A stretch of 37,647 nucleotides of DNA from Emergencia sp. (GTDB taxonomy: Bacteria; Bacillota; Clostridia; Peptostreptococcales; Anaerovoracaceae). The DNA lies in assembly GCA_022767345.1 (NCBI GenBank), contig JALEOD010000059.1, positions 1 through 37,647 of the forward strand. Direction: 5' to 3'. The notes beneath the pieces were generated by a model that saw only the letters and a program-made list of their open reading frames with translations, was not told the DNA's origin and made no database searches. Position numbers and translations under genes: made by a program. Numbering within the stretch: the first letter of the stretch is position 1; each line of letters begins with the position of its first letter. This document shows, piece after piece, positions 2,316-2,786 of this stretch.

Positions 2316-2786
<471 letters not shown>

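Follow-up and report, generated by a model that had tools for sequence, protein, structure and literature searches.

A probable consensus error behind the in-frame TGA in the rpsG gene of an Emergencia sp. draft genome

Results

The rpsG gene deposited for Emergencia sp. is interrupted at codon 124 by an in-frame TGA, which, on comparison of sequences, is best read as a local consensus error of base-calling or assembly (probability roughly 0.78). The rationale for this reading is that the TGA sits in a 62-base patch of out-of-character changes resembling sequencing errors: over this short distance every change runs from A or T to G or C, and the substitution types are ones that Illumina instruments confuse. 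The window analysed is an entire contig (G000:C70, 37,647 bp), one of 71 that make up a draft genome of 2,604,650 bp with an estimated completeness of 99.5%, and fusA, rpsG and rpsL lie on its minus strand near the contig start. The rpsG gene (2316..2786, minus; PF00177, 215.8 bits) runs from a GTG start codon at 2786 to a TAA at 2316-2318 and comprises 156 codons including the one internal TGA. A profile search of the assembly with PF00177 returned a single S7 gene with this one TGA inside it. The gene covers 148 of 148 PF00177 positions if the TGA is read through and is flanked by the S12 and EF-G genes of the str operon, while the uninterrupted frame to the conserved C-terminus expected of uS7 is broken as deposited at codon 124.

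A preliminary description of this DNA had placed the TGA at codon 124 (2415-2417, minus), with a frame open beyond it for 32 sense codons to the TAA after codon 156 and an ATG directly after the stop. Translation bears out each of these statements, and its coordinates and lengths are correct. The Met codon at 2412-2414 abuts the TGA and opens the predicted downstream reading frame at 2316..2414 (32 codons plus TAA, minus). The same description presented the sequence past the stop as the conserved S7 C-terminus; the frame is indeed intact, but the quoted EDTPKM reads EDTHKM in relatives. A substitution two codons upstream of the stop, K122T, was overlooked, as were T131P and H142P downstream of it. 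The proposed single T-to-G change thus accounts for the TGA but leaves the neighbouring changes unexplained, and among the three options offered (a recent change, continued translation or a wrong base) the wrong base is favoured here, but as a patch of about six bases instead of one.

Comparison with the closest congener, G011, reveals that S7 is 95.5% identical, against 99.1% for EF-G and 99.3% for S12. Between positions 2361 and 2422 (minus) there are six base differences from G011, all A/T to G/C and five of them A>C or T>G. A stricter view is obtained from the 342 rpsG columns that are identical in all eight congeners, at which Emergencia sp. has five private bases, every one within 2361..2422, a patch that holds only 44 of those columns; base 2394 was not counted as private because the congeners vary there. 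The five bases fall in codons 122, 124, 131 and 142 (twice), all are changes of A/T to C/G, and four are non-synonymous (K122T, L124stop, T131P and H142P). Among residues invariant in the congeners, 4 of 137 are changed in rpsG, all inside 21 codons, compared with 4 of 2,653 in fusA, rpsL, rpoB and rpoC combined. The last 14 codons of rpsG are equal to those of G011.

The genome background for such changes was taken from 36 conserved segments, namely five window genes, 29 open reading frames of the S10-spc-alpha region and two of the gyrase region. Of their 13,825 columns, 63 hold a private base; 13 of these bases lie outside third codon positions and eight are A>C or T>G, and the rpsG patch contributes four to each of these two counts. 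Outside the patch A>C and T>G make up 4 of 58 private bases, and 0.013 such changes would be expected in its 44 columns. The resulting probabilities of 1.7e-6 for five private bases and 1.2e-9 for four A>C or T>G changes serve as a guide only, since the patch was picked post hoc. In three further genes (infB, dnaK and secA) 3,768 columns yield another 22 private bases, of which one is A>C or T>G. The private changes in rpsG are therefore clustered, of one type and out of line with the genome background. Across the 36 segments this is the sole cluster of its kind in the Emergencia sp. genome, while at least four private A/T to G/C changes within 62 bp also occur in five of the eight other genomes compared. 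The diverged G009, with 464 private bases, has the most of these clusters, one of them in its own rpsG.

Clusters of A>C and T>G relative to G011 alone are found at many other places, in diverged stretches. The nearest thing to a second patch lies on a separate contig (C25), within an S10-operon gene for a ribosomal protein (L164, 4421-4489), where four A>C or T>G differences from G011 fall within 24 bp and one of the four is a conservative Ile to Leu change at an invariant residue. This run may reflect chance or a further error patch of a milder kind, and it was not counted as a patch; antisense frames were disregarded in the S10 operon comparison.

The same base types would fit a real A:T>C:G mutation event, the type expected upon loss of MutT, in which case a clustered mutation or a mutator would have damaged this copy while a working rpsG resided elsewhere in the genome, unassembled. 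Repeated genes may indeed be absent from this draft, as it yields no match as strong as the tuf-like ones of G005 and G010, which would represent tuf. Against this stand the single S7 gene recovered with PF00177 and the failure to find a second copy of the patch in the assembly, where the next match is 22 bases long (E 0.08); the search for a second rpsG suggested in the preliminary description thus found none in the assembly. Moreover, a mutator would act genome-wide, and the rarity of A>C and T>G among the 58 private bases outside the patch led us to reject a mutator signature in the segments compared. Such a mutational origin is for these reasons considered highly improbable. A diversity-generating retroelement was also considered and set aside, the changes hitting both A and T of the coding strand.

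An S7 match was found in 49 of 61 genomes searched, and none of the 48 others has an internal stop; for one of these, G013, the match is only a fragment that does not reach codon 124. An order-wide search gave S7 matches in 260 of 297 genomes with no stop among the matches listed, which are the higher-scoring ones and do not include that of the Emergencia sp. genome itself. No S7 match was obtained for the remaining 37 genomes, which include 24 of the 254 whose estimated quality is good, and several contigs in the order begin about 2.3 kb from rpsG; the str operon would appear to be a common assembly break, probably at tuf. The C-terminal S7 stretch gave no match among viral contigs.

Codon 124 encodes Leu in all eight congeners compared, and across 82 distinct S7 proteins residue 124 is Ile in 62 and Leu in 20. 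This set was drawn from 92 loci that yielded an S7 C-terminus, 53 of them among the best 80 named loci; conserved neighbouring motifs were required, and loci lacking the motifs or lacking rpsG in the flank were dropped. The best 80 loci listed all come from other species (EF-G identity at most 90%), in a capped list that may omit near records. In the preliminary description a sense codon in close relatives was held to mark the TGA as a sequence error. A sense codon, Leu or Ile, is what the comparison returned, but because these relatives are other species this observation is not by itself proof of an error, and the stronger argument in our comparison is that the private changes around the stop are clustered and uniform in type. 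Within the same 82 proteins residue 142 is always His, residue 131 is never Pro, and residue 122 varies, being Lys in 40 proteins and one of Asn, Gly, Ala, Tyr and Gln in the other 42. Conversion from another species was considered as a source of the changes and rejected, since Pro occurs at neither 131 nor 142 in any of them.

A further explanation is a real nonsense change, in which case the cell would survive on a 123-residue S7 and selection on the sequence past the stop would be weakening. The broken frame in the sole S7 gene found in the assembly and the position of two odd residues after the stop are in agreement with this idea, as is the report that E. coli S7 retains binding to its minimal rRNA site in vitro after loss of the stretch corresponding to the 11 C-terminal residues of yeast rpS5 (PMC2856670). 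The same source states that in the yeast homologue the last seven residues serve an essential function. In a predicted S7 model (mean pLDDT 73) the stop falls within the helix formed by residues 113-129 and the terminal helix, itself at pLDDT below 50, is lost. K122T precedes the stop, and decay would be expected neither to proceed by A/T>C/G changes only nor to spare the last 14 codons. Given also the lack of a stop in all 48 other genomes with a match, we regard real truncation as unlikely. Truncation, readthrough and splitting of S7 share one further burden, that each must also account for the changes neighbouring the stop.

Readthrough or suppression of the UGA would yield a full-length S7 with an amino acid at position 124. 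Of the three stop codons UGA leaks most in E. coli, where readthrough of up to 14% has been reported, with insertion of Trp or Cys, and the stop of E. coli rpsG is among the sites at which it has been seen (PMC11126739). That case resembles the present one in having UGA in rpsG, but it apparently concerns the normal stop of the gene, whereas in Emergencia sp. a portion of the protein that relatives conserve is encoded beyond the UGA. Leakage at E. coli rates would be too low for a stoichiometric protein. The search for prfB located the RF2 gene, and TGA terminates another window gene (one of 16 listed) that matches G011 to residue 235 of 237. No internal TGA is present in infB, dnaK, secA, gyrA or S3. 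As for a UGA-decoding tRNA, no UCA anticodon was seen among the tRNAs found (29 of 30 matches read by ARAGORN), a set that is incomplete and lacks several expected tRNAs, that for Trp included. A TGA-recoding genetic code, and with it reassignment of UGA, is unlikely in view of prfB, the use of TGA as a stop and the five genes free of internal TGA. Readthrough leaves the neighbouring changes unexplained, and we attach only a minimal probability to it.

The ATG immediately following the TGA allows for the alternative that S7 is made in two pieces, with termination at the stop and reinitiation at the adjacent codon. Seven of the eight congeners carry the same Met codon and none has a stop, so the ATG is no sign of adaptation. 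No split S7 was found in relatives in the 61-genome search, and reinitiation again offers no explanation for the neighbouring changes; it is no more credible than readthrough.

S7 is a primary assembly protein of the 30S head. Were the TGA real and the sole S7 made either in two pieces, by restart at the ATG, or through efficient readthrough of the UGA, and were K122T, T131P and H142P to accompany the break, this would to our knowledge, on a limited literature search, be the first bacterium living without an uninterrupted S7 gene. From the sequences compared, we consider this combined scenario very unlikely.

Discussion

How might an essential gene come to be broken in a draft genome? If the consensus error proposed here is correct, the TGA would be one of about six wrong bases between 2361 and 2422 of the deposited consensus, and the living cell would carry an ordinary, uninterrupted rpsG. 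The patch may have been assembled from few or poor short reads in which A/C and G/T signals were confused, and the wrong bases would then never have been removed at later steps. Published error profiles are consistent with such a course. In the HiSeq data of one study the commonest errors were A/C swaps (29.2%) and G/T swaps (26.8%), and the main miscall at 118 of 136 error-prone PhiX positions was G or C in place of A or T (PMC3334598). The authors of that study stress the sequence context, with 102 of those 118 hotspots coming after G (PMC3334598); only two of the five A>C or T>G bases in the rpsG patch are directly preceded by G on the plus strand as written. For MiSeq read pairs, A>C is reported to account for 66% of the errors at A in one read and 85% in the other (PMC4381044). 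These clustered substitution errors are similar to the rpsG patch in their A/C and G/T swaps, in the reading of A/T as G/C and in their local accumulation (PMC3334598, PMC4381044), but they are errors of single reads, whereas the rpsG changes would sit in the consensus. A second likeness is to metagenome drafts, for which local errors without read support have been described (PMC7111523). There too a short stretch of consensus breaks a gene, and read support is the defining test (PMC7111523).

An error of this kind would have a practical implication, in that damage to an essential gene could be recognised without reads in a draft estimated to be 99.5% complete, the giveaway being the type and clustering of the private changes and not the stop alone.

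The neighbourhood of rpsG contains a second feature, a conserved structured RNA of about 200 nt between rpsL and rpsG (3010-3221, minus), regarded as a candidate uS7 (str operon) leader. The element is conserved in all eight congeners, and a covariance model built from the nine sequences detected a single copy in each of 25 genomes, all from the same family, Anaerovoracaceae, out of 198 searched across the order. Twenty of the 25 loci were fetched, and in every one the element lies between rpsL and rpsG; in three of the 20 the match overlaps the first 9 to 43 bases of rpsG. Among 25 distinct RNA sequences, 34 of 46 pairs show changes on both sides and 92.2% of cells pair. The covariation score of 0.412, compared with 0.163 for shuffled and at most 0.087 for slid alignments, derives from an alignment fitted to the model, which favours the structure. 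Against Rfam 15, the window and four congener loci matched nothing but microRNA families below threshold, and six further loci had no match at the gathering score.

In E. coli, S7 represses its own operon, and the RNA between rpsL and rpsG may be an S7 autoregulatory element. A paper on 20 ribosomal leader candidates lacks the term uS7, and rpsG is absent from the covered part of its table (PMC7247131). The rpsL leaders described so far precede rpsL or fusA, and a motif of Pelagibacter is occasionally found before rpsG (PMC2965389, PMC2704228). A covarying RNA beside rpsG may in the end matter more than the TGA. Between the RNA and rpsG the window has an extra stretch of about 220 bp, containing an 18-nt inverted repeat (2806-2823 and 2894-2911) that is 89% complementary and is possibly an inserted hairpin element; the corresponding gap in several relatives is only some 35-60 bp.

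Elsewhere in the window, positions 12376-12873 (minus) encode only the C-terminal third of a DcuC-type carrier (profile positions 320-460 of 461). The remainder was not found by eye in the adjacent frames, and the fragment is probably a gene remnant.
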